DNA of 64,000 bases. It comes from Paramacrobiotus metropolitanus. Its lineage: Eukaryota; Tardigrada; Eutardigrada; Parachela; Macrobiotidae. The translations under genes were made by a program, and so were the position numbers. The DNA lies in contig NW_026570390.1 in the NCBI RefSeq assembly GCF_019649055.1, positions 62,001 through 126,000 on the forward strand, written 5' to 3'. The notes beneath the pieces are model-generated. The model did no database searches. It was given only the letters and a program-made list of their open reading frames with translations, and had not been told where the DNA came from. Of this stretch, positions 8,375-53,934 are shown piece by piece (the stretch's first letter is position 1; the number at the start of each line of letters is the position of its first letter).

Positions 8375-9501
8375 TTATGCGGCGTCAGATCTGGAAATGG
8401 CGGTGCCCGGTGCTTCCTTACGACTCAGTGCGTAGCTCATGGACGCTCTGGGTTTTGCATTGGGTAATGGCTTACACATTAGGACACTGTTGAACGCCTC
8501 CCGACATTCCCTATTCATCGCGTAAAACAGTACCTGCAACCGTATAATCTTAATTATTGCGACTGACATTTATAAAGGGCTATTCAGTAAGTCGAAACCA
8601 AACCCATTACCGGTGTTGATAAATATCCAGAATACAACAGACCGCGCAGCCACGGCAATGTCATAGTTTGCTGGAGCATCCATAACGGCAGCACCGATTT
8701 AAGCATCGGAAGCGTGGAAAAGCATACACAGTGCACGATCCAGTTGGCGAAGAGCATCTTGGCCAATTGGACGCGTTTCCGGTAGGCACCGCTCGCGGGC
8801 GGTAAGGCGGCTGCGTCTGCGGTAGTGCGATTAGCATGTCGCCGTGAGGCCGCTACCTGCCACAGCACGACGACGTGCATAACACCGGCCAGGGCCAACG
8901 GTAGGTGGACCCTCAATGTCGCCGCAAGATCGAACATCAAACTGCCTTGGCGGGCATAATTGCAGAGTGTCCAAGGAGGTTCCGCGACAAAGCCGTTTGT
9001 ACGCAAGTAGAACGGCAGGTGAACTGCAATTCCCAAAATCCAAAATGCAAGGATTTGCGCCCGGAGAAATCGCTGGCGAGTGAAGCGAGGGTAGAGATGG
9101 GGATAGACGATGGCGATGAAGCGGTTGAACGACAGCGCGCAGAGACCCCATATTGCGGCCATCATATTGATCTCGTAAAAGAAGTAGAAGTGCCGGCAGA
9201 AGGTGTTGCTGGTGAAAATACCGTGGCGCGCCAATAGCAGCTGTAGGAGAAGGAGCGGCCAGTGCACACCGACCATCAGCATCTCTGCCAGGAATTGGTG
9301 GGCCAGCAGGAAACGGGGACCGGATAAGGAGAAACGTCGACGAAATGTCAGCGAGATGAGTAGAAGGTAGACCACAATAGTAAAGAGGCAGGCCAGACTG
9401 GATACCGTCACGTAGGTCGCAAAATGAGCATTGTCATGGACGACAGCGGAGTGGTTTGTGAATAAAGTGTAGTTCCGGCAGGACAGCGATGAGTTGGACA
9501 T
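8375..9501 (-). CDS. Rhodopsin-like seven-transmembrane receptor (family copy 1, intact)
   Basis: There are two exons: 9501-8611 and 8533-8375, joined in phase 0 (donor GTAATG, acceptor TTGCAG), giving 349 residues. The extracellular N-terminus has likely N-glycosylation sites (NSS, NYT, NHS). Seven hydrophobic segments follow. A cysteine before TM3 (NTFCRHF) and one in loop 2 (WTLCNY) can form the class A disulfide. The position of the DRY motif reads FNRFIAIV, so the acidic residue is replaced by Asn. TM7 reads STPVLFYAMN across the splice, a variant of NPxxY, and is followed by a short Ser-rich tail. The family is repeated locally, always near an F-box copy. It is probably an orphan receptor in the plasma membrane; the ligand cannot be read from sequence. 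The ATG at 9501 fits the paralogue N-terminus. Confidence 0.85.
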
Positions 9502-11349
9502 TCTTAAGGTGACAATGTCGGCAAGACGTTTACTACATTACTTCATAAGGACAGCAAGATCGGTCACATTGACACCTAATACGGGGGGTTAGCAAATACG
9601 GGCACTTCGGACATGAAAACATTTAAATTTGAAACATTCCCTTGACACGTGACAGCCGGAACAATGACGGAACTCTTTTTGAGAACATATATAATTAACA
9701 TAGCTGATTCTTAGGCGAAACAGAAAGCGCCTTCTTCTTGTTACCAACAAAAAGAAAAATACCGAAAAGTCGGATAACGACTCGGATAGCAAATAGCAGA
9801 TTGATAAAGGGTAAAGTATAACTCCACAGAATTAGGTCACTTTTCCACGTATGAACAAACTGCGCGTTAACAACCGCACGAACACGACGCAGAACGTCAT
9901 GCGTAATCTTGGTTATGCTGGAAGTAAACCAATGACAAAAATTAAACTTGAAAGTCCAGTAAAATATTGGCAAACTGCGCGGTTTCCTGTGACAATTAAT
10001 CGATAAACATGCTAATGCAGTATTCCATCACGCTGGGTGAATCTGATTAATACCATCAGGTTTAGGATACGGAGTGCACGTCGAATTTCAGTGCTGCAAG
10101 CCTGGGCTCCCGCTGGTCGGTGTATGTATAGATATGTAAGCGTATGCTGTTTTTCCGGTCGGATTATTTTCTGCACAAAATGGCTTTCGGGAAATGTGTA
10201 CGATGCCGGGCGCCTGCTGTTAAAACAAGAAGCCTAGCGTGATTTGCATTGCACCACCCGCAGTGTTCTCCTCGTAGACTCGCAGCGCAGCCATCGCTGC
10301 TCCCCTGGTGTACTGGCAATGTGCCTTTCACTGCCTTTGTGATGCCAGCACGTTTGGTAACTCGAGATTTCTGCTTTTTATTTTATTGTTACGCATACGA
10401 GCACTGTCCAAGCAGGCTAGCACTATAAATGATTAAGGCATGACTGTTTTCGTGTGTGAATTAAACTGAAGGACCTCTGACCATGGGAAAAAAGAGCTAT
10501 TTCTCTGGATGTCTCCTTGTAGGTCGCACTAATCGCCTTGTTTTCACAGCAGTCGCCCACCTTCGGACGTGCGTTACGGATGAATATTTGGCTTAATTGG
10601 TTATTGGGTCGGGCCAGCTTGTTATTAGTATGTGATCAAAGTTTAGTAAATTATTAATTCGCCTAACCTCTAGCGACCTTCAATGAGCCTTCAATGAGCC
10701 GACATTATTCACTTGTCAAGTGAATGTTGTCGTACCTTCAAGTGGTCAGGCATCCATTTCTTTGCTCCAGAACCGAACTATTATCTTCTGGCTTATTGTT
10801 ATAGAATGTTACTGTCACCAATGTGCTGCCAGATTAAACAATATTATGGCGTACTTTCACTGTTTTGGATGGGATGCTGGTGCTTAGCGCGCTGTGTTAT
10901 GCCGAAATTCTCTCAGTTGTTGTTGTCTCTTGGTTTTTCTCTCAGTTGTTTTTCTCTCGGTAAATCTATTCTACGTAGTAGTACTGAACTTGCTGATTGT
11001 GAATAATTTTTCATATTGTGCCATTTACTACGCGACTACGATGGCATTAATACATTAATATTTTGTTAGCCATGAAAAGCGCAATACGTACTACAATCTA
11101 TTTTACCGTTAAGAAAATGTTTTCTATTCTAGCCCTATAAATTTCGTTTTAGATTCGATCGTTACAGTTTCATAACGGTGCGGTATGGAGTGCTTAAGTC
11201 GGGATGGTCAACTTATTGATAACATATCGTATCTCATTGCCGGATTGGATGAAGTTCTAACAAACTGTCTTGAAAATTTGTAAATCTAATTTTGTTGCGC
11301 CGGTGATGGTTCTTTGCCATAAAAAAATGACTGGCTGGTCGCTGTCCTC
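9502..11349. other. Intergenic, no gene seen
   Basis: AT-rich spacer between two receptor copies that point in opposite directions. Open frames here are short, lack family similarity and have no convincing splice context. Confidence 0.5.
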
Positions 11350-22045: not shown

Positions 22046-22851
22046 ATTAAAACCATCTTCCGGTTGCCGTTGCCAGAACTGAATTGGACCAATATCGTAG
22101 CCAATTCGTATTCACATAGTTTCGTTCCTGTTAATTTTCTTGCATGCATCCTGTGCAATGAAATTACCAAGACTCAGGGCATGTTTTTGAACCGGGTCCG
22201 ACTATAAGAGCCGATGTGCCATAGTTTGTGTAAGTTTGTGCTATGAACTCAGGACTGCGATAAAATCCATTGATTTCCATTTCTAGAACTGATTCATTTT
22301 GCGAGGGAAACATTTCGACATTAATGCTACGAATTATGGAGTACCATCACCGAGAAACCAGAACGAGATCTATAAAGTGGCGCCCGATAAAAACGTCATA
22401 CGAAACCGAACTGGGCAAACTGTAACGCGTGACGCCCTCGTTAGCGTAATGCGTCATCATTACTGATTCAGAATCTTTGAGTCAGAGCACACGTATGCTG
22501 TTGTGCATTGTGGTAGGGTGCGCTGTGATGCATCCGGCGATGTGCCTGACTGGAACTCATTGTACAGTACGAGCATACAGTACGTGTTTGGCCATTGTGT
22601 CCGTTGCCCTGTTTGGCAGCAGCCGATTTTTTGTCACAGCAGCATTTGGCAGTGCTGAATCGCAGTTGCCAACAATCTGCGAGCATGCGCGTTCATGTTT
22701 TCCGTTTTGAGAATTAATTAAGTATTTGCTATTTTGTCACACGATGGCAATGAGACGCCAATGAGTTCTAGTTTTTCGATCGGAAATCTTTCGTCTTATC
22801 TCAAAACTTTGAGCGTGTACTGAAAATTAGTCATTCTGGCTTTTCTGCATC
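22046..22851. other. 5' flank of F-box copy C
   Basis: No gene is seen. It may contain the promoter of copy C. A TATAAAG word occurs at about 22371, roughly 480 bp before the ATG, and TACAGTACG words occur at about 22560-22585. Confidence 0.4.
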
Positions 22852-25800
22852 ATGAACGCGACATCGCTGTACTTTCGCAAGTTGTTCTCCGGTTCGCGTG
22901 AGCTGAACTACGGGAACACGGTGCTGGTGCAGCGTGATAACGGCCAGTGGTGGTTAGGATACGTTCAAGACATCGATGGTCCTAACTTCTTCGTGGACTT
23001 CGATGCCAGCAGCATCAGTGCCCAATGGATTCATTCTAGCCGTCTCTGGCCGCACCGTTTCATCGACCCCGCTCAACCACTGCAGCTTGAGGGCTCGCCA
23101 GTACATGTAGCGCTGCGGGATACCCATACGGATCCGATGGTTTTTCGGCAAGGTACCATCGCGGACGCTACTCACAGCAGTCCGTTCTACGTTGTAAATG
23201 ATGACAGTCCAGATGGGGTAAAACGGCAGCATATCGTACATCGAAATCATTGCACCCGTGAGCTGCCCGTGCCGGATGATATGGAAAGTTTCTTCGCGCG
23301 AACTACGGGGTTCCAGTACACGAAGCATGTCATCAGTTTTCCCGAAGCGCAGTTCCTGCCAGACGTGGATTTCATCCCTGCGTTTTTGGCCCGAACATGT
23401 CGATTTGTATTGGGGAAGAATAGCCTTTGTGGTGCTGAGTGCCACTTTGATAGAGACATTTGGGTGGACGAAATACATATCTTTTGTACTGCCCAACACA
23501 GGCACGCGGGTGGAACTTTTTCCGTGGGTGTTGGTTGTCGAATGTTTGTGCGGATGGGAGTGGATACGGTCACCTTTATCTGTGCCGAATGGCGTGGCAA
23601 CGAGCACAGTCCCAGCCTGTTCTGGAACAGAGTTTCCCTGGAGACAGCTTGCGCAGACTATCTGAACCGGAAAGTAACAGCAGAGCCGATTCGCAAGGAT
23701 ACGATTTCATGGCACGTGCTGCAGCATGGTCAGTGTTCTTGCATATTTCCTTCTTTTGGTATATTTTATACTGAACCGTGTATAGATGTGGAGGAAATGT
23801 CCATAAGCGATCTTGCACATCCAATCCTGACTGACATACTGCTTCATCTGGATGGAGAATCTCAGTTGCGGGCGAGCAGGTATGTTACGTTATCTATTTT
23901 ATTCTTTAGCTTTTGAAACGTTGGGAGCTTTTAGCGAATTTGTACATTTTATGGATCGTAAAATTCGGGATTTACCAGAAGGGCGGTTAACTGTCTTGGA
24001 AGCAGCGTTTCAGTCTTGCTGTTGTCAAAGAAAATGCTATAACTGTTTTGCCTTTTAACCGAAAGAAGATAGGGATTTTGGTTGTTTTTTTAATGTTTAA
24101 ACTATAACTATGACGTTCTGTACCTGCGCTCGCAGCTATTGTTATTCGGGTGGCTGCTGGCTATTGCTTTAAAGAAGGGCCGGCATAGCGTGTATCTGCA
24201 TAATAACTGTTAGTTTACATGTTTAATTTGTAATTGAGCTTGTACAGTAAAACCTATACACCGACGGTACACCGACACCGATACACCGACGGTTTCGCAA
24301 ATCCCGTATTTATTATCCAGGTGTATTTAATTTACAGAACTGCCCCCAGGGGTAGTAAAAATTTTCGCCCCCCTCCCCAGTTAATACGTATAGCAGAACT
24401 GTTACATATGTGCAGTATGTTAGCTTATTGCTTCAGTACAATAATGTTAGAAGTTAGAACATGCACTGTGCACTTAGCTTACAATTGAACAAAAAATTAC
24501 AGTTTAACAAAAAAAGAATCTAGGAACTGTTGCTTTGCTTTCGCTGTATTAGCCAGATTTTTCTCCAAAGTCAAATCATTACGCTTTCGTTTGTCTACGA
24601 TGGTTAACTTTTTACGGTATTAAACTCAAAGACTGGCTACACACTGTTTTTCATCTGCTTGACGTAGCCCAGTTCTGCATGCCACTTACAACTGATTTCA
24701 AGTTTTTAACGCGGATGATTCGTTGTAATTTGTTTGTCTTTACAGACTGTACTTTGTATGTAGCCAGCAGGTTCTTACATATGGGTATTTCGCATCCGGT
24801 TAAGACCAAAAGTGTATGTAAGCCTATTATACAGGTGTATGCACTGTACAGGATCCCCCCTATGTTATAGTCTACGGGATGCGCCGGTTCCTGTTTCAGT
24901 GTATTTACCTTCCAGGTGTATTTGTTTACCAGGTGTATGTAGAGACAGGTTTTACTGTACACTCAAATTAGATTGTTTATTAGGGTCTGCGCGCTGTGGA
25001 GATTGATCTTCAGCAACTACGTAAACCACCGGCACATCACGCTTAATATCTGTTTAATGTGTGAGGGAGAACCATGGAACGGCGTGTCAACACCAGGAGC
25101 CTCAGGACAGTATGCTGATGAATTTGAATCTGACGATTATGCTGAATATCTCAAGTACAAAATGTTTGTCACGCTGTGCAGCCTAATTCCAAACCGCACG
25201 GAGGCGCTTGAGCTTATAGAGCATGCGAACCACTTCCACTATGACTTCGATCTCACCACAAGAATGACAATGATGACAACCGTATTAGCCGCCAAAGGTG
25301 TTCGTCTGCCTGTAGTCAGTATCAGGAACGGGAGTGCTATCGCTACGCCTCTTGGGCCGCCACATGACTTCCTGGCCGTCGTCCGTAATGATCAGAGTGG
25401 AGTATGGGAATGTCACGGGTTGTCGGAGGTTATGACGGTTTGTGACCAGTTGGTGTTGATTAATTTCACAGCAGTGAATTTCATTACCGGAGCAGCGCTG
25501 CAGATATTCACCTACGATACTGTAACCTCCTTGCCCTGGTTCGAAAGAGCGTTTCTGCGCCGGGATACTTACAACAGACCATTTCAAGTGACCATTCCGC
25601 GTCTACGTTTCCGCTACGGAGAAGCAGCCGCGGAAGGAGTCCGAATTCTATTGGCAGCGGCCAATGACCAGTGTCCGGCCGTCAGTCAGCGGGTGTTGGA
25701 CAAGGTCACCGCCATGCATGCGCGCTGGGTGTTGACGTTGGCCTATCCGGATCAATGGACCGAGATTCGCACCTTTTTGCAGATGTACGTCTGTTTTGCA

Positions 25801-27599: not shown

Positions 27600-28482
27600 T
27601 CGATGTTTTCAGTTATTCTAAAATTACGTTGTACCACAGGTGAAATAAAATCATTCTGAGAGGTCCGGAAACGGAAGACGGTGGTTGACATTGGGGTCAA
27701 CGGGAAATGCGCTTGAACGATCGGCTACCCATAAGTTGATGGTTAGCCGCTTTGAACAATACTAAATTTTTTGTAACATCCACCGAAGGCGGAGCCGCGG
27801 GCGACGCGAAGCTGCGGCGTGTTCAGAGCCCGCGAAGCAGCAAGTGAGATGAGATATGGCACTGATTGTTTAGGTTGAAAACGCGCGACAGTTTATAGTT
27901 ACTGTAACTGACGGAACTGTACGGAATCTGACGGAACCTAATGGAACTCTAGGGAACTTGAAAGAACGGTACCGTATAGCCGGATAAAATAATTTTAGTG
28001 TTCAGGCTGTACGCTGCACTGGCTGCAAACCGTGTGCTTGAATCGTGAATGCGCTCGTACAATACAAGTGCGCATGGTAGCACTGTAGTACTGTACAAAT
28101 TTCCTTCGACTGCAAGCATAGAGTACAGGTACAGTACGAGTCTGTACGACTGTACGAGTACATGCTTAAGGCCCACCAGACCGGAACGCATATTCCGCGC
28201 CGCATTCGCTGCTGTAGTTTACATTCGTTCTAAAAGCTAAAAGCGCCAGTGACTGCGCAGTGCGCATTATTTGTTTCGGTCCGATTACCATTACTGTACT
28301 CAAAACGGCACATTAAGGCCTAAGAATGAATATCAGCAGAAAGGACTTCGATTCGAAGTAGTGTTATTCGTTACAGTCTTTGAACGGACGGCTGCAAACA
28401 AGATCGGTGGTTAAAACCAACCTGCACGGCGACACGGACACACCGTCGGCTTGCGTAACTGATCCGATCCGCAGTCCCTACC
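27600..28482. other. 5' flank of F-box copy D with short repeats
   Basis: Degenerate ~10-bp repeats of the type CTGACGGAAC lie at about 27905-27970. A dense cluster of GTACAGTAC/TGTACGAG words lies at about 28060-28165. No gene is seen. Confidence 0.5.
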
Positions 28483-30897
28483 ATGAACGCCACATCGTTT
28501 TACCTTCGTCAACTGTATTCGGGTCGCCGCGAAGTGAACTACGGGAACACGGTGTTAGTGCGGCGTAGCAACGGCAAATGGTGGCTGGGGTACGTACAGG
28601 ACATCGATGGCGATCAGTTCTTCGTTGACTTTGACGCCAGCACCATCAGCGCCCAATGGATTCACTCCCGGGCAATCTGGCCCCACTATTTCCTTGGTAA
28701 CGTGCGCCCATATTATGGTTCTTCCGTGCAGGTGGCGGTGCGGGATGTCGAGAATGGCCCGCTGGTCTTCCGCAGTGGAACAATCATCGAAGGTGTCTGT
28801 AGCGGGACATTCGTGGCTGTGCGCCTGATGAATCGCAATCCGAGGAGTGTAGAGAGTCCTTGTTTTGTACATTCGTCTCAGCTAGTCAGCAAACTGCCGG
28901 TGCCCGACAAAGACCCGAACTTCTTCGGAAAATGCAAGGGATTCGTCTACCGTAAGCATGTCATCGGTTTTGAACAAGCGCATTTATTGCGTGATGTGCG
29001 TTTTCTGCCCAAGTATTTGTTGCGCACGTGCCGCTTAAAGCTGGACAACTTTGATCGCGGGTGCAACGCCAGTTGTCGGTTGAAACGGTGCGATATCACG
29101 GAATCGTACACCATTCGGTTCCAGTGTTTAGTGCACCAGCGGGATCATGAGCTGGATGTTAGCTGCCGAATGTTCGCAAAACTGGGGACGGACTCGGTGA
29201 AATTCGTCTGCGGCGAACTGCACGGCGACGCCGCCGGGTGCAGCATGATCTGGAATACTTGGACCCTGACAGAAGCATGTCGAACCTGTCTTTCTGAGCA
29301 ACAACTGGGGATGGCCGGCCAGATCATTCCCGTAAATTGTGGAATCACCACTTCTCAGCTTGGTATGTAAAGCAAGACACGCCAGTTACAGTGGCATTAG
29401 CAGCGGGCATATCTGAGGAAGTTTACTAGGATTTTCTTTTTTTTCTGGAAGCCGGGAAGTATTCTTAGGATTTTTTTCGGGAAGTATTATTAGGATTTTC
29501 ATTATTATCAAGTTTCAGTAGTCTGTACTGCCCCGACTCAGTATTCAGCTTGTTAATTTTTGCAAGCTACAGTATTACAGAAGAGTTACCGTTCTGGACC
29601 GGCCCCGATCAAGTGATGATCGCATTTATTTTGCAGATGAGGGAGAGATTAACATCACGGATTTTCCCCATCCGATTGTGTCCCAGATTTTGTACAATCT
29701 GGATATTGTTACTCGCTACGTATCGATGCGCCGGTAAGACAACTAGCGACCTCTGTACTGCTTTATTTTAATTTTCAAAGGCGTAGCGTGTAACACTCAC
29801 GAATCTTAGCGCCTAAAACATCCGGCATGGATAGACGATGTTTCTTAATGAATACAGTTGGACGACTACAGTTTTAGACGAATGTTTTAAATCGTTTTCC
29901 ATTTTCTGGGCCGCTATAAACGGCTTGACGTATATTTCTTATTTGTACAGGGTTTGTGCGCTGTGGAGGATCTTGCTGCAGGAACACGCAGCTGACCACG
30001 ATATCGTCTTCGACGTCCATTCTCTGTGCTTTAAAAGACCATCCGATCGCGAATTCTCCGTTGAATATGTCTATTTCGCGCACAAAATAGTAGTGTTGCT
30101 GAAGGACTTCATATCGCCGTACACTCGCACCTTGATTTTTACGGATGACAGCCAGCAACACCATCATTACACGAACCGATGTAACTTCCAGCAGGCCTTA
30201 TACGAGAGCACGCAGATACTGAAACTCAAGGCCGTTCGCCTGCCGCTGCTAATCGTCAAGAATGGTGGAGATGTCGCGGAGGATAGGACGCAGTGCTTTC
30301 TCTCCATCACCCGCAATGCGCAGGGACAGTTCGGATGTCAGCAGTTGGCGTGGCTCGGATCCGTGTGTGACGAACTGCTGCTCATCAACTACACCGCATC
30401 CATTCCCTCCGCCTGTAATTCTCTACTCACGACGTTGTTCTACCACGTTGACCACACCTGGCTGGACGACGGGCATATGATGAGACGACAGGACGAAAGT
30501 GCGCACCTCAACGTGGTTATTCCGTTCCTGCGCTTCCGTCGCACGGAGACGCCTGCGGAACAGTGCCGACGCTTCGTCGCCTCCGTTAACGAGCGCTGCC
30601 CGGCCGTTAGTCCCGAGGTCTACGCAAAGGTCAAGGGAGTGCATGCGCGCTGGGTGCAGACGCTGTGTTATCCCTTCCAATGGACGGGCATCCGCATGTT
30701 CCTTGATCTGTGCGTAAGACGCAAAAGAGCATTTTTTCGTCCATGTATAAATTGACGGTGAATTTTTTCACAGGTTCAGTTGTGCCCGCCCTGGCAGCCA
30801 TCCACAGCGGTGGACCGGAGTGGATCTGCGGCAGCTGGATGTCACGATGTTGAGTCCACTGGCCTTGCACATTCTGGACGGATACTTTGCCGACTGA
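28483..30897 (+). CDS. F-box family copy D, intact four-exon gene
   Basis: Exons 28483-29362, 29637-29733, 29951-30709 and 30774-30897, in the same phases as copy C, give exactly 620 codons (619 residues). The Tudor-like start (GNTVLVRRSNGKWWLGYVQD) and the Cys-rich part (CNASCRL, DVSCRMFAK) are conserved. The F-box exon is more divergent (NITDFPHPIVSQILYNLD, then RRVCALWRILL), one codon longer than in the other copies. The end of exon 3 keeps MFLDL with the donor GTGCGT. The last exon reads FSCARPGSHPQRW and ends YFAD. It is the most diverged copy and probably the oldest split. The role is inferred as for copy C. Conservation of all splice sites and frames over 620 codons argues that it is under selection. 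Confidence 0.82.
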
Positions 30898-35785: not shown

Positions 35786-38700
35786 TTAACTGTCAAAAGT
35801 AACTTTGTGCAGTTCTTCCACCAAACTGGCAGCTGCGATGCGCTCATCGCTGCTTTCCTGCAGGCACATCTTGATAATATTCGCAATCACTGGGTGTATG
35901 TTGTCGTTGATCAACGGCACAAACCCAGATGCTGTTTTATAAAAAATAAAATTATCGTTTTGATTATTGATTCGGATGGGCTCGTTTGTGCCTTGCACCA
36001 TCCATTTGCCTTGGTTTCCGTAAAAGCAGTCCGCAAGATCCATTAGAATACAGCCTAAGCTCCATACATCGGTTTTTCGCCCTGGTTTTATATCTGCGTT
36101 GACCAAGAACTTGCCTACCATTTCCGGTGACATGTAGCGAGCTGTTCCTCGCATGCGCGTGACATCCTTAGTACCGGTTTGACTGTGCATCAGGGCAATA
36201 TGGTCGTCTAGATCGGCTATAAGCAGGTCGTATCCGTTGGTATCATGGGCTCGTCGAACCAAAATATTTCCTGGTTTTAAATCTCCATGTATTACTTGTC
36301 TACCATGCAAATACGCAACACCCTCCGCGATCTGCTTCCCGAATTTTACCACGTCGTTCAAGGAAATTGTCTCCTTCGCATCTGCAAAGCTGCTAAGCAG
36401 GGCGGCTAAATCTTTCTCTACAAGCATAAAAAAACTAATGATTCCGAGGCTGTTGCTACCGAATAGATTTTTGGTTTAATTTAGAACTGCTGCAAGAGGA
36501 CACAGGATCAACTGGTAGCGCTCTGAAGAAATTGGCTCGGTATATAGCACCAAAGTCGCACCCGGACTTGGGAGTGCACCAAAATCGTGCACTTGCACGG
36601 CAACTATTGCTTTCGCGTATTCCCAAAACCTTTTTTGCTTGAGGTGATGGCATTTGTTTGCAATTATGTCGTACATATGGGAGTGAAAATCATCTGTGCG
36701 CACAAATTCTTTTGGGCGAGTTATAATGGTAAGAAAACCCAAAAACTTTAGACTCATTCAGGTGTTCCAGGAATTTTATTTTGGGCCAATCTTCTTTACA
36801 GTCCGCATGGAAACGCACGTAACCATGAAGATCGTTTTTATGTCCACTGGTTTGTTCCACAACTTGGTTTCAAATTTTAAAAAAATTGTTCCCAATTTTT
36901 GAAATTTTGTTTAAACTTTTAAAAAAATGCTGAAGCAAATTTTCGGTGTAAAAACGAACTTACTGAGACATACATGTGTGCATAACAATTGCGTTGATGT
37001 GCACAGTTTGCAGAAGATCAGTCTGCAATCAGAATTTTGGTACATCTGAGTGCATTTTAGCCTTTTGGAATTTTCTATCTCCAAGCGGAAGTTGCGCGCG
37101 CAGATACTTTTCAATGAAAAGTCTCTGCGCGCGCAACGCCGTTTTCACATCAGCGTATACAAAACGGAATATTATCGTAAGCTGTATCAGTCTGTATGTT
37201 TAAATTTTACACGCTGAGTTCGCTTCCATGTAAACGCAAAAGCAAAATGTTTAAACCGAAATGTAAAGCTTTTTACCATAATAATCCATCAGCAGCTCCA
37301 CGAATGTTCCCGTTCTTGTCTTTTTTATGCTAACTTTATGGTAAACCACCAGCCGCTCATGCTTCAGTGATAATAAACAGTTCCACTTTTCTGCAAGAAC
37401 CTCAAGGTTTTGTGGGTCATCACGGGAAGGAACTCCATACCGAAATTTTTTGACCGCTACAGTATCTGAGCCTTCATAATTGCCGCGTGACACTATGGTA
37501 GCCAGGTATACAAAGCCATAAGAACCGTGCCCCAGTTCAGACTCATATTCAACACGATAGGTGCAAGTAGAACCAAGATGCAGTAGTTGTGCGTCAGCAG
37601 CGTTAGGGAGTATTTCTGCTGGTAGGATGCTGCTTTGTGAGGCTGTGTCTTCGGATTTCAATGATGCCGATGCCGTCGATTTCACTGTCTCATGGATGGG
37701 AGTCGATGGGGAGCGCTGTGGCATATTGGTTTCCTTCTCGGTATGCAGCGCATCCAGTCCTCGGAGAACCAGATCATCAGCAGCGCTGCTAAGCTCAGTA
37801 TTTGGCTCCTGTATTATCTTAGTGATAAGCTCTCTTATCAATGGAATTTTTGATGTTCCTCCGGTTAAGATGAGGTCAAACTTGAGCTTTTTTCGTGCCG
37901 GTAGAGCCAAGCCTTCCGATATTTTACTGTACAGCAAATTCACTACTTGATAGCACAGTTTGTGCAGAAGTCCGTAGAAGTCGGTATGATTTATCTGAAC
38001 GTTCAAATCGAGACCGGCATGAAAATTCGTGACATTGATTGTGGCATAATTGTTATGCGACAAGGCAATTTTGGCTGCCTCACACTCAAGTCGCAGACGG
38101 TGTACGCCATCACGATCAAATTGCACTTTCTCATCCAGATCCAACATTTCCTGAAATCGGTGAGCGCAATAATTCATCAGGAGAAAATCAATCTCATTTC
38201 CACCGTAATCCAATGGAAATGAGTAAATCTTGTCGTAGCCAGTAGAATGGAAAGAGTAAATCGACACACTAGAAAACTGCGCACCCATCCGCACGATAAC
38301 AATATACCGGGAACTTGCCAGCATTTTGGGAAACTGCCTGAGTAAACCATGAATTTGCGTGTCCGAGCGGTCCAAGAATTTGGCTCCCTGGAAAACGGTA
38401 TCTTTAACCACACTGCGTAAATTCTCCCTTAAACGTTCAATATCATGCGCTGCAATGTAGCACTCCCTAATGGAGAAATCCATATCATCTTGTTGTTGAC
38501 ACATGACACTCAAATGCTGCATAAACAATGCATTCAGCCCTTTGGCATCGGTTCCCAAGCCGTGAGTATACTGGCTTTCCCTGTCGATAGCACCCACACC
38601 TTCTTCGGGAGACGCTGTTGAGAGCAGGAGAAGACTGGAGTCCACAGCGTCATAAAACACTTGAAAAGGCTTACCAGCACCCAGGGATTCTCTTATGTGA

Positions 38701-39032
38701 TCAGACGGCCGGCTTCGCAAGAGCAACGATGGTTGGAAAACTATGTAAGAGATGGTTTTCTTCGATAGCTCTCTAGCTTTGCATCCAATTACGGCGTTTT
38801 GATGCAATATGTTATGCTGGGACTCGAAGAAGTCCGGGAATTCCGATCCACCGGGCTTTGCGTGACCACGAACGAACATATATGTCGGAATCTCCTTTTG
38901 GTCACTAAATTCCAGCTGCTTAAACTGCTCATCTGCCAACTTGACGGCTACCCGAATGTACGCCGTCCCAAAGTCCAAGTACAGCTGCACCGGAACCTTG
39001 GGACGTTGAGTGTCAGCCTTGCGCGATGCCAT
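35786..39032 (-). CDS. Hsp70-type ATPase domain fused to a protein kinase domain
   Basis: Exons 39032-37277 and 36417-35786 join in phase 1 (donor GTAAAA, acceptor TTGTAG) to give exactly 796 codons. Residues about 15-430 follow the Hsp70/actin-fold nucleotide-binding domain: LDFGTAYIRVAV at 19-30 (phosphate 1), SFPLDYGGNEIDF at 271-283, RLRLECEAAKIALS at 312-325 and LTGGTSKIPLIREL at 389-402 (adenosine site). The phosphate 2 motif, normally DLGGGT, reads VRMGAQ at about 247-252, so ATP hydrolysis is doubtful. A Ser/Thr-rich linker (431-490) follows where Hsp70 has its peptide-binding domain. The kinase domain (about 497-790) has GHGSYGFVY (501-509), Lys528 in VAVKKF, HGDLKPGN (629-636, catalytic D631), DLD for DFG (654-656) and SPE for APE (682-684). 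It is probably an active cytosolic Ser/Thr kinase; its role is unknown. Confidence 0.85.
36456..36870 (-). other. Coding-like remnant nested in the Hsp70-kinase intron
   Basis: On the same strand as the host gene, an open stretch (KNDLHGYVRFHADCKEDW, KIKFLEHLNESK) breaks near 36690. It continues in another frame as DDFHSHMYDIIANKC, KRFWEYAKAIVAVQVHDFG and LYTEPISSERYQLILC, then a stop at 36478-36476. It does not fit between the two kinase lobes, which join perfectly without it. It looks like a frameshifted pseudogene of a protein I do not recognise. Confidence 0.4.
37091..37137. repeat. Hairpin with 23-bp arms in the Hsp70-kinase intron
   Basis: The arms beginning GTTGCGCGCGCAGA pair along 23 bp with one mismatch around a single central base. 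Confidence 0.85.
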
Positions 39033-41520
39033 GCTTTAGTTTTAAGCAACTAGAAATAAGATGCGACAAACACCTGTACACGATGTATTATCCTTAAAAA
39101 CAAAACAAAATACCGTATATTTCATACAAAATGTACTATGAATAGAAGGAAGGCGAGTAAAGTCAAACAATTCAGAATGGCAGATACCGCGGTATATATA
39201 CTAATTTCAACAAGGAAACGTCAGAACTACTGGCAGCAGCAAGCGGTGCATAATAATCGGAGCTGATTTTTACTGCTGTTGGAATATTATAACAGCCGGC
39301 TTAACATGCTACCACGTTTGAATCCGAGCTATCTACAGAGTAACAGACCATGCAAAGTCCCGATAAAATCGCTAAAGGTGCGGTATTTACGGTTCGTAGT
39401 TCTTCTTACTGCTTGCCGCCGATGCACCCAACGATAAACGCTACTTCAGAATTAAGGAGCACTTGGTTTATTACAAGCAACTAATTATGACGACTGCACA
39501 ACATGCACGTCGGACTGGCTGATACAGCTACTGTTGTAATCGTACGGTCCTTTCGAGTTTCAAACAACAACACGGTACGTAGCTGTTATAGTCCGGTTTG
39601 CTGCCCTGCAGCGGAGTACCGTACTTTGAATCGCGTTGCGATTCAGAGACTAATTTGTCACTATCATTTGATTCATTTCAGATATGTGTTTAAAATCCAT
39701 GTCGGTCAGGTACAAGTCGCCGGCAAGCAAAGCGAGAAGTGCGTAGGGTATAATTCGATGGTTGTAAATATTTGTTCCTTCATAGAAAAAGCAAAAAGGT
39801 ATAGAGGAAACAAAACAGTACCAGTCTGAAAAACATAAAACAAAAAATATTAAGCGTAGATAATATTTCTGGAACGGCTAGTTACAGTTTTATTTTGACC
39901 GATGGTGCACCAAAGCTCAAATGGTATAATTTAATTAAGGTCATTAAGGGTACATATTATTTTTAGAAATACCACGGTAGTGCTTATCTTTTCTGTTGGC
40001 GATTAGAGACTACAGATACAGTTATGCGCAATCTTATGTGCTGTAATAGCCGCTGATTACATACATGTGCCTTTATAATTTTCATGTCCTGCGCTTTTAA
40101 ATCACGTAACAATAACGGATTTTAATATGTAGCACTCACACGGTAAAATAGATAAAGGCAGGATAAAGGCCAACAAGTACTGTACTTATGGAAAAACTTA
40201 CCAAAGTCGGGGGTTGATGTTGCTAGGTATATCATCGTCAGGCTGGCAGTCACTTGTTAGTTGTTACATAGTACCCGTACGACAAATATCGTTATACTTC
40301 ATATAATGCTTTCCCGCTACAATTTGCCCAACCACGCATCGATCCAGCTCCGCATACACTCACACCGAAAGAGAGCGAACAAGACAAGAGAGCGTGTGTG
40401 CGAGATTGATCTCATCAGTCAACTGTAACGTTCCGCCATAAAGCTTCATTTGGATGTGCTTTATGAGTTTTTAATAGGAGAACTCGGCGTTTACATTTCC
40501 CATTCCCGCGGCCGCACATGGCCCATTCTGCCCCACTTTCCCACTTCCGTCCGCACTGCAACCACAACCCCGCGTCTTTCCGCCAACCGTTCCCCCACTC
40601 CAAGCACACAATGACACATGTGACCTTTCTTTACGACGCCGTAATTATAGCCATTTCCTTAATTTCTCCGATAAAAACAACCGACCAATAAGACGACACG
40701 AAGGCGGGTTCATCCCTTGACAAACAGATGGCAAAAACGGTAAAACCGTACAAATGCGATCTAATCCGTTGATGGGACATGTAAATAGGCGCATTTGCAC
40801 GGGGAAGGGATAAATGCCCCGGATTTTCTCCACGTGGAAATTCGAGAGATTTTCTCGACAAGTGTGTGTGTTTTTCCCGCTCGTGCACAGCTGCGCCTTA
40901 TCATCGGCGTTGCGTATGTATGACGTGGACACAATTGTACTGTGTATACAATCAATACCGGCAACACACAATCCAGTGAGTTGCGCGCGCGCACGGAGCG
41001 CTCATAAAGCTGAGCTAACGGAGAGAGATGCGCGTTAATGCGCAGCTGATCGTCGCTGGCGACTTGTCAGGGATGTGAGAGAGGGAGCGCGCGCGAGAGA
41101 GAGAGATACAAGCGGGGCTTTTGTGTTAGAACTTCCGTGCACACGTCGGAAACTGTTGGTTTAACACTCGTGTGCGTCTCTCTCTATCCGCTTATCCCAG
41201 CAATCTTCCGGCGCCGGGATTTTCTGTACTATAGTACCTTCTATTGTTATCCCTGACGAAAAGGTGCTGAATCGGCTCGCAACCCGGCTGGAGACCGGAC
41301 GCCTCAAGTAGAGCCAATAAGAAACGCGCGCCTTGTGTATTACTGTGCTTGCTGTGTGCTGTGTGTGTGTGATGGAGAGGCATTCTTGATTTGTCCTGCT
41401 GGCTGCTGCAGCGGACGCTGCTTTCTCCGGCGCTGCGGCTCAGTCTCGAGAAAAACGGGGGGAGAGGAAGAAGTTGAGGGTAATCGTGTTAAGGCCCAAG
41501 AAAACGTTAAGAGGTTATCG
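39033..41520. other. Intergenic; CpG- and GA-rich promoter-like zone at the right end
   Basis: A TATATATA word at about 39193-39200 lies 160 bp upstream of the Hsp70-kinase ATG and could serve it. From about 40370 to 41450 the base composition changes: GAGAGA/GCGCGC blocks (41076-41107), TG repeats (41350-41372) and GC-rich patches. This is consistent with a promoter and 5' UTR for the gene starting at 41521. No other gene is seen. Confidence 0.45.
41076..41107. repeat. GA/GC simple repeat
   Basis: A run of GAGAG blocks interrupted by GCGCGCGC. GAGA-type runs are common in arthropod promoters, but function here is only inferred. Confidence 0.7.
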
Positions 41521-52561: not shown

Positions 52562-53551
52562 TTAGGATGCGTGTGCAGTGCTCTGGACTTGATTATTATC
52601 CTTTCGTTTCCACAGTCGAAGTGCATAATGTCGCACGTTGCCGAAGGTCAGACAGAAAAACAGCGGATCCAGGATCGGCTGCAGGTTATACAGACTCGAC
52701 GTGACTTGCAATACGACGGGTCCCATTCGTACAGATGGGTAATTGCTGAGGATAGTATAGTAACACATACTCGGCAGCCAGCACACCAGGGTACTGCATG
52801 TGTACAATGTCAGCAGTGTGAAGGAACGGTTGAAAGTTGCCTGCTTAGCTGTAACAGTACCCGGTCGTGTTTGCCGTCGCAATAACATTTTCCACAGTAA
52901 GAACGGATATGCGACGTAAATAACCACAGTAGGTACATCGAACATCCAAATACTCGTGAATTCGGTCAGTGCAAACTGTCTGGCGAGATTCAGTCGGCAG
53001 CCTTGCTCCAGCGGAAGGCGATAGTATACGTGATCCAATATCACTTGCGGCAACAAGAACACATGCGCGTAAACCGCCACCGCGCCGCATAATATGCCGG
53101 CGACAGCGTGGTTATGCCGAGCACGGTAGGAGATGGGCCCGAAGAGTGCCCAGGCGCGATTCAGCGTGATCAGCAGATGGTAGTGATAAATCATGGGGAC
53201 GACGACATATAAGAAATACATGCGAACGGTGCAATGAAAACTGCCTAGCCAGTAAGTCCCATATGCGTCCGCGATTATGATAAGTGTCGAGTTCACACAG
53301 GCATACGCCAAATTGCTACACATTAGGGCTACAACGTACATGTTGAAAGGTGTGCGCAGTGAGGTCTTCGATAGCGTTAAGAGCAGCGCCAAAGAATTGA
53401 ACATTATGGTTAGTATCTCGATGCTAATGCGACTGACTGATACCGACTGCTCAAATGTTGTGATGTTCGGCCGGGAGAAGGATAGCGTAGTGTTGACGAA
53501 GGGCACCGAGAAAGCGGATAGATTTTGCGTTGTTGTCGTGTTTGAATCCAT
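52562..53551 (-). CDS. Rhodopsin-like seven-transmembrane receptor, single exon
   Basis: An intronless 329-residue receptor, unrelated in detail to the receptor family in the left half. The start is the ATG at 53551. The N-terminus has four likely N-glycosylation sites (NTT, NLS, NTT, NIT). Seven hydrophobic segments follow, with a conserved-position cysteine before TM3 (SFHCTVRMYF) and another in loop 2 (EQGCRLN). The DRY position is replaced by NRAWALF, TM6 has CWLP, and TM7 ends LDPLFFCLTF (a DPxxF form of NPxxY). A short basic tail follows. The class A fold is clear. Ligand and subfamily are not; the altered DRY is also found in some invertebrate orphan chemosensory or peptide receptors. 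Confidence 0.85.
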   Translation of the reverse strand: MDSNTTTTQNLSAFSVPFVNTTLSFSRPNITTFEQSVSVSRISIEILTIMFNSLALLLTLSKTSLRTPFNMYVVALMCSNLAYACVNSTLIIIADAYGTYWLGSFHCTVRMYFLYVVVPMIYHYHLLITLNRAWALFGPISYRARHNHAVAGILCGAVAVYAHVFLLPQVILDHVYYRLPLEQGCRLNLARQFALTEFTSIWMFDVPTVVIYVAYPFLLWKMLLRRQTRPGTVTAKQATFNRSFTLLTLYTCSTLVCWLPSMCYYTILSNYPSVRMGPVVLQVTSSLYNLQPILDPLFFCLTFGNVRHYALRLWKRKDNNQVQSTAHAS

Positions 53552-53934
53552 AAGGAGTGATGGCCAAATGTCTGTTACTGAGCTGGCCAATGAAGCTTCC
53601 TGGACTTGTGACGGCTAATACAAAAGCGATCCGCAAAAAAACCTAAGGATCAGCGCGGTGCCATACGACGGTGAAGCACATCAATCACATAATATAAGGA
53701 GGCGAATGAAACGGTCCTTTTTAAGCTACGGATGGTGCCCAACCGAGCTAACGCAGACATGGTCAAATTGAATTCAACAGTTCAGTTCCAGATCGCCGGA
53801 GATAAGCAGCAAGATGCCAGTAGTATCTCACACAGCCTTTTTCGTAAAGTAACAGACCCTCAATCAGATAACTTTTTAGCTCTTCTCTCGGATGTATCAG
53901 AATCCTGTCAGAAATAACGATATTCTTCAGTACA

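Follow-up and report, generated by a model that had tools for sequence, protein, structure and literature searches.

Can a piece of a chaperone become part of a signalling enzyme? Few proteins are as conserved as the Hsp70s, which, to our knowledge, are hardly ever reported as a building block of such enzymes. The question is raised by a locus of the tardigrade Paramacrobiotus metropolitanus, located in a stretch of 64,000 nucleotides (contig NW_026570390.1, C170:62001-126000 in our numbering) that we refer to as the window. Here, a single protein of 795 amino acids (aa) is predicted to carry a divergent Hsp70 nucleotide-binding domain (NBD) that is joined through a linker to a complete kinase domain. 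All counts of families, fusions and tree members given below are from one genome, that of P. metropolitanus (169,799,020 bases in 533 contigs; C-numbers denote contigs and L-numbers loci).

Structure of the window gene

The gene lies on the minus strand. An open reading frame (ORF) of 594 codons (37251-39035) carries the Hsp70-like domain and then the N-terminal lobe (N-lobe) of the kinase in the same frame and the same exon, and a second minus-strand ORF (35786-36475) holds the kinase C-terminal lobe (C-lobe). Joining exon 1 (39032-37277; NBD, linker and N-lobe in one open frame of 585 codons and one base) to exon 2 (36417-35786; C-lobe and stop codon) removes a phase-1 GT..AG intron (37276-36418) at the boundary of the two kinase lobes, with ATG/GTAAAA as donor and TTGTAG/AG as acceptor, and gives the 795-aa protein predicted from the sequence. 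Enumeration over the locus returned 34 GT..AG donor/acceptor pairs that yield an open protein of >700 aa, and the pair 37277/36417 was preferred since members of the kinase family share its donor. The GGT codon that contains the phase-1 G/GT donor stands at the same place of the N-lobe in 16 of the 16 loci where the donor was located, the window included, out of 20 examined (L012, L105, L111 and L042 matched neither of the two patterns). The window intron is therefore the intron of the kinase family. An assembly or two-gene artefact at the window was rejected, given the one open frame and the conserved intron; as judged from its sequence, the NBD-kinase fusion is a real, single gene. The order of the two domains is also more than chance, since a second locus, on C32, has the same order.

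The NBD covers approximately aa 16-432 (37737-38987), on the evidence of Pfam, by a profile of paralogues run against PDB, and by a structural model of lobe II. Pfam reports PF00012 (HSP70) at aa 241-414 (E-value 3.2e-15; 55.8 bits vs. a cut-off of 20.6). Four paralogues of this divergent type, one at C32 and three at C83, are 31-35% identical to the window NBD. The profile of these five NBDs matches 125 distinct PDB sequences at E <=0.001 (best 5.8e-30), and one of its alignments to a PDB Hsp70 covers profile positions 17-400; among the 60 PDB matches listed, 59 carry Hsp70-family names and one is a "putative uncharacterized protein." A substrate-binding domain (SBD) and lid were not recognised by Pfam in the window protein, where the HSP70 match ends by profile position 358 of 599 and the kinase comes next. 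The three C83 paralogues have no kinase within or directly after their frames, and at two of them a long serine-/proline-rich frame follows the NBD.

Alignment shows what has become of the nucleotide-binding motifs. The phosphate-1 motif reads DFGTAY (38958-38975; DLGTTY in ordinary Hsp70s) and is partly kept, the adenosine motif GGTSKIP (37842-37862) is kept, and the phosphate-2 position reads RMGAQFS (38271-38291) in place of DLGGGTF, with R248, M249, A251 and F253 invariant among the five divergent NBDs. The positions of the catalytic residues Lys71 and Glu175 of Hsp70 are changed as well, lying in the stretches QPSLLLR and DRSDTQI of a weak lobe I alignment. Forty-odd positions are invariant in the alignment of the five NBDs, which argues against pure drift. 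An AlphaFold2 model of the window NBD, built with 27 prokaryotic DnaKs, has a mean predicted local distance difference test score (pLDDT) of 55 and a predicted template modelling score (pTM) of 0.51, with lobe II modelled confidently (block-mean pLDDT 63-92 over aa 221-420). It superposes on Hsp70 structures with Z of 13.8-14.3; the 50 PDB rows listed are all Hsp70-family by title, so that the list carries no information on likeness to other folds.

A Ser/Thr/Pro-rich linker of ~57 aa inside exon 1 (37566-37736) leads to the kinase, which Pfam matches at aa 495-786 (PF00069, Pkinase; 7.6e-32, above the cut-off, profile positions 2-259 of 263). The N-lobe (37277-37565) has a GHGSYG loop, the segment VAVKK with the beta-3 Lys (K528), and a Lys at the position of the alpha-C Glu. 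The catalytic loop reads HGDLKPGN (36266-36289), with the catalytic Asp (D631) and Asn (N636) kept and HGD standing for HRD, and DFG is replaced by DLD (36206-36214), which keeps the metal-binding Asp (D654) and lacks the Gly. The nearest solved kinases lie close together, with no clear lead for the STE11/MAP3K group, namely MAP3K2 (4.4e-14), ULK2 (1e-13), MAP3K5 (2.9e-13), and DAPK3 (1.7e-12). The family to which the kinase belongs is very large, with at least 150 genome matches to a C-lobe query and at least 76 rows to an exon-1 query. Within the family, each of the 10 N-lobes found by a motif script has K or R where the alpha-C Glu would be, and Cys was read there by eye at C85. The catalytic loop has G-D-x-K in 59 of 69 C-lobes (three gave no match and seven have another letter before the Asp), and the metal-binding motif is DLD in 64 of the 69, a genome-wide sample of the family.

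The original prediction, made from the letters of the window, had proposed one gene with its junction at 37276/36418, and that splice is the one that uses the family donor. It had also described an Hsp70-type NBD with a kinase in place of the peptide-binding domain, which agrees with the two Pfam matches (returned by the profile search that it had suggested as a check) and with the lack of a recognised SBD. The four kinase residues that it had named all stand at their numbered positions in the spliced protein, and the loss of DLGGGT with retention of GGTSKIP was confirmed by alignment.

Hsp70-kinase joinings across the genome

Comparison of positions and reading of the loci identified eight Hsp70/kinase loci in both orders, three with the NBD first and five with the kinase first. 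The comparison set 52 Hsp70 rows (47 of 89 from the Hsp70 search and five from the exon-1 search) against 165 kinase rows (150 from the C-lobe search and 15 of 76 from the exon-1 search). Eight is a minimum for the fusion loci, since the candidates were scored in part (69 of 130 in the Hsp70 search, 75 of 283 in the exon-1 search, and 150 of 596 in the C-lobe search). Parts of both domains share one open frame at five of the eight loci: the window, C32, C85, C150, and C392.

Among the Hsp70-first loci, C32 has one open frame of 476 aa that runs from NBD lobe II into the kinase N-lobe. Pfam reports HSP70 only in this frame, the N-lobe being recognised by sequence comparison (9.4e-21), as is the C-lobe (2.4e-43). 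At C96, the third locus of this order, NBD and kinase lie on adjacent exons in separate frames. Of the kinase-first loci, C85 has one open frame of 680 aa in which Pfam finds Pkinase and HSP70 (profile 1-379), and C150 has one of 450 aa with Pkinase and HSP70 (1-175), the next frame reaching HSP70 profile position 485. The 475-aa frame at C392 contains the NBD by Pfam and a kinase tail recognised by eye and in the kinase alignment. At the two C132 loci the frame changes between the parts; the Hsp70 part was found by Pfam, and the kinase parts by tblastn (one locus), by eye, and in the kinase alignment. The copy at C132:290-294k looks degenerate, its N-lobe frame being without the VAVK segment. 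Two further loci join an Hsp70 NBD to RhoGEF. At C86 (L020:867-2714, minus strand), Pfam finds an Hsp70 NBD and RhoGEF (2.8e-17) in one 616-aa frame; at C49 (L016:1401-4445, plus strand), the frames after the NBD hold a RhoGEF piece (3.2e-4, below the cut-off) and PH (1.9e-12).

Loss of the phosphate-2 loop accompanies these layouts. The motif D-x-G-G-G-T/S/K is lost in all 15 NBDs of non-chaperone layout vs. 2 of 18 other Hsp70s (Fisher p = 1.5e-7). The 15 comprise eight kinase-fused NBDs, two joined to RhoGEF, and five whose frames, as read, show neither kinase nor RhoGEF nor a recognised SBD; two of these five were run through Pfam. Of the 18 others, 16 match SBD profile positions in or beside them, C72:226k and C72:241k being those that do not. 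Any of T, S and K was accepted as the last letter of the motif; counting T only, 15 of the 18 keep it. The C150 row is gapped at this place in the alignment, where the joined piece was cut short; its frame reads LELLERQQ. This pattern fits, without proving it, an NBD that has entered a signalling protein and been freed from ATP hydrolysis. Apart from C85, every kinase-first fusion (four of the five) has a changed adenosine motif, and C96 does as well.

A single ancestral fusion for all loci was rejected by trees of both domains. In a tree of 69 kinase C-lobes, the window, C32 and nine unfused kinases form an 11-member group split from the other 58 at 100% ultrafast bootstrap, and a further clade, also at 100%, unites C150, C392 and the two C132 loci. 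Approximately unbiased (AU) tests on the kinases, from which the half-length C132b kinase was left out, rejected seven fused kinases as one clade (p = 3.4e-7) and the three Hsp70-first kinases as one clade (p = 7e-4); the kinase-first loci as one clade were not rejected (p = 0.59). In a tree of 33 NBD rows, which is without several multi-exon Hsp70s (on C6, C81, C58, C45, C34 and others), rejection extended to all eight fused NBDs together (p = 1e-33), to the Hsp70-first NBDs (p = 7e-31), and to the kinase-first NBDs (p = 1.9e-5). The C85 and C96 NBDs are close to ordinary Hsp70s of C72, yet they are fused in opposite orders. The window and C32 as sisters were rejected by neither tree (p = 0.57 for the kinase and 0.365 for the NBD), and this pair is without strong support in either free tree. 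The groups tested were set by architecture with the first trees already known, and long-branch limits apply. On these trees, the Hsp70/kinase loci require a minimum of three joinings, which rises to four if the NBD tree places C85 correctly.

Upstream of the nine unfused members of the window's kinase clade, no divergent Hsp70-like sequence was found with the five-NBD profile (678 frames, 2.2-4 kb per locus; the stretches read at C102, C19 and C113 showed no N-lobe that could clearly be assigned to the family and to the same gene), and all listed Hsp70 rows are more than 30 kb away from the nine. Family kinases have other partners. At C74, one of the nine, a marginal ankyrin match lies upstream of the kinase (4.4e-6; 27.6 bits vs. 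a cut-off of 27.3). Elsewhere in the family, L046 and L023 each have a partial second kinase that shares the frame of the first, and at other loci the kinase is followed by a tail that Pfam does not match. Because partners beside family kinases are so varied, the window NBD probably sits in a slot where modules are exchanged.

Further arrangements were seen in the family. At three of the nine unfused clade members, L104, L106 and L108 (C240, C97:262k and C97:308k), a second kinase-like domain lies directly upstream of the family kinase. Its catalytic loop is altered at C240 (HGELCPEN) and at C97:262k (HRDLNGSS), which recalls pseudokinase-kinase pairs. At C83 (L010:2414-4592), kinase frames are followed by Kelch motifs (Kelch_1, 7.9e-20) near one of the divergent NBD genes.

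The window also contains members of a family of ~300-aa ORFs (NYGNTVLVQRDNGQWWLGYVQDIDG...), at 22831-23913 and 28459-29367 on the plus strand and in similar window frames. The family has at least 133 genome matches (130 of 801 candidates scored) and resembles a Tudor/Agenet-type module by eye only; two of its window frames, run through Pfam, matched nothing. One member lies beside the C32 fusion (L011:7445-8422); synteny of this family near the window and C32 was considered as evidence of segmental duplication and dropped, given a family with 133 matches in the genome. Two rhodopsin-type G protein-coupled receptor ORFs are located at 8587-9537 and 52565-53614, both on the minus strand (PF00001, 2.1e-18 and 7e-18).

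A possible role for the fused NBD

We give an even chance to the reading that the window NBD is a degenerate, non-cycling Hsp70 domain that serves an atypical kinase as its docking or sensing module. As its motifs suggest, the NBD would not hydrolyse ATP; it would retain the lobe II fold of Hsp70 and may still bind nucleotide. Through lobe II it may contact a partner, which could be a co-chaperone or exchange factor of Hsp70, a separate Hsp70, or the NBD itself, and that contact could position or gate the kinase across the flexible linker of ~57 residues. Partner modules would, apparently, be exchanged within the very large kinase family. Several points weigh against this docking or sensing role. 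Gene, domains and function are read here from DNA alone, and the atypical motifs of the kinase leave its catalytic activity uncertain. Lobe I is modelled poorly (pLDDT <50), and an intact two-lobed NBD is therefore not established by the model. Because the rows are related, the association of phosphate-loop loss with fusion comes down to three to four independent pairs (sign test, median p = 0.25), too few for a phylogenetic test. Finally, the fusions at C96 and the two C132 loci rest on adjacency or frame changes, and one of them looks degenerate.

Other readings share some of this evidence. An idea close to the one put forward with the original prediction, that the NBD still binds ATP or ADP and that its open and closed states gate the kinase by energy or chaperone state, seems unlikely to us. 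GGTSKIP and most of DFGTAY are kept, and the PDB matches to the NBD model include an ATP-bound structure of Ssz1, an Hsp70 that binds ATP without the ordinary cycle. However, the phosphate-2, Lys71 and Glu175 positions are all changed, and with the adenosine motif altered in C96 and in every kinase-first fusion except C85, nucleotide sensing would not be common to the fusions. That an Hsp70-like domain might in some way link stress to signalling by gating a kinase is a reasonable guess. We also assign a low probability to functionless shuffling, in which two big families recombine and the fusions are passengers on their way to becoming pseudogenes. The Hsp70 and kinase families are indeed both large and clustered, and decay is apparent in the C132:290k copy; against this, although the 31% identity between their NBDs implies copies that are old or fast-evolving, neither the window nor C32 has lost its open frames, kinase motifs or conserved NBD positions, and joining to this one kinase family, and to RhoGEF, has recurred.

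A very unlikely alternative is that the pseudo-Hsp70 acts as an integrated decoy, by analogy with the fused decoys proposed in plant immune receptors. Such a domain would be bait for chaperone-targeting molecules of parasites or pathogens, and contact with it would fire the kinase. The very large, clustered kinase family, the several separate joinings, the loss of the phosphate loop while other NBD positions are kept, and the kinase-kinase neighbours in the window's kinase clade would all suit a decoy; that we know of no animal precedent counts against it. Two adjacent genes, or an error of assembly or gene model, we regard as exceedingly improbable. The loci held together by adjacency or frame changes (C96 and C132) could be read in this manner, but the frame shared by both domains is free of stops at the window, C32, C85, C150 and C392, and excerpts of the genome report describe an assembly built from long and short reads combined (PMC8277472).

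The same excerpts describe P. metropolitanus (Paramacrobiotus sp. TYO) as desiccation-tolerant (PMC8277472). Repeated joining of NBDs to kinases and RhoGEFs in such an animal offers a way to ask whether signalling proteins read the state of the chaperone system, with several separately arisen fusions available for comparison, and it suggests that signalling has taken over part of a chaperone as a sensor or docking piece. It is conceivable, though quite improbable, that the Hsp70 NBD is a mobile signalling domain of tardigrades. Catalytically dead Hsp70s would then have been fused several times over, to RhoGEFs and to either end of kinases, and would report, as bait or sensor, the state of the chaperone system or an attack on it, possibly as an animal counterpart of integrated decoys or as a means of wiring desiccation stress to kinase signalling.

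Comparison with known systems

Searches of the open-access full-text literature found no natural fusion of an Hsp70 NBD to a protein kinase, in keeping with the original statement that no protein of this architecture had been described. Matches to "kinase-Hsp70" were discarded, as the excerpts returned use it as a superfamily name and not for a fusion protein. Excerpts of the Hypsibius/Ramazzottius genome paper report expanded HSP70s in H. dujardini and tardigrade-only kinase clusters, and these excerpts mention no fusion.

Each half of the window protein has recognisable relatives. The NBD resembles that of cytosolic Hsp70 (HSPA1/HSPA8) in lobe II fold and sequence and in its adenosine motif, and differs in the changed phosphate-2, Lys71 and Glu175 positions and in having a kinase where no SBD is recognised. 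Ssz1-type atypical Hsp70s are a precedent for use of an NBD without the ordinary ATPase cycle; Ssz1 itself, however, acts in the ribosome-associated complex and has no kinase attached. The kinase of the window protein, for its part, resembles MAP3K2, ULK2 and MAP3K5 in overall sequence, glycine loop, Lys, and catalytic Asp and Asn (best E-value 4.4e-14), and departs from them in its HGD, DLD and alpha-C Lys. Plant tandem-kinase and kinase-fusion immune proteins have exchangeable, often degenerate partner domains, and their paired kinases are similar to the kinase-kinase neighbours at C240 and C97; they belong to another kingdom, and any immune likeness of the window gene is by analogy only.

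The nearest known counterpart is DNAJ-PKAc of fibrolamellar carcinoma, in which a domain of the chaperone system is likewise placed on a kinase, the catalytic subunit of PKA. DNAJ-PKAc is reported to recruit Hsp70 and to redirect signalling (PMC6533061). It differs from the window gene in that its chaperone part is a J-type domain and the fusion is somatic and arises in cancer, whereas the window gene has an Hsp70 NBD and belongs to a germline gene family. The parts of the window protein are known; their combination, its recurrence, and its occurrence in two orders are new.

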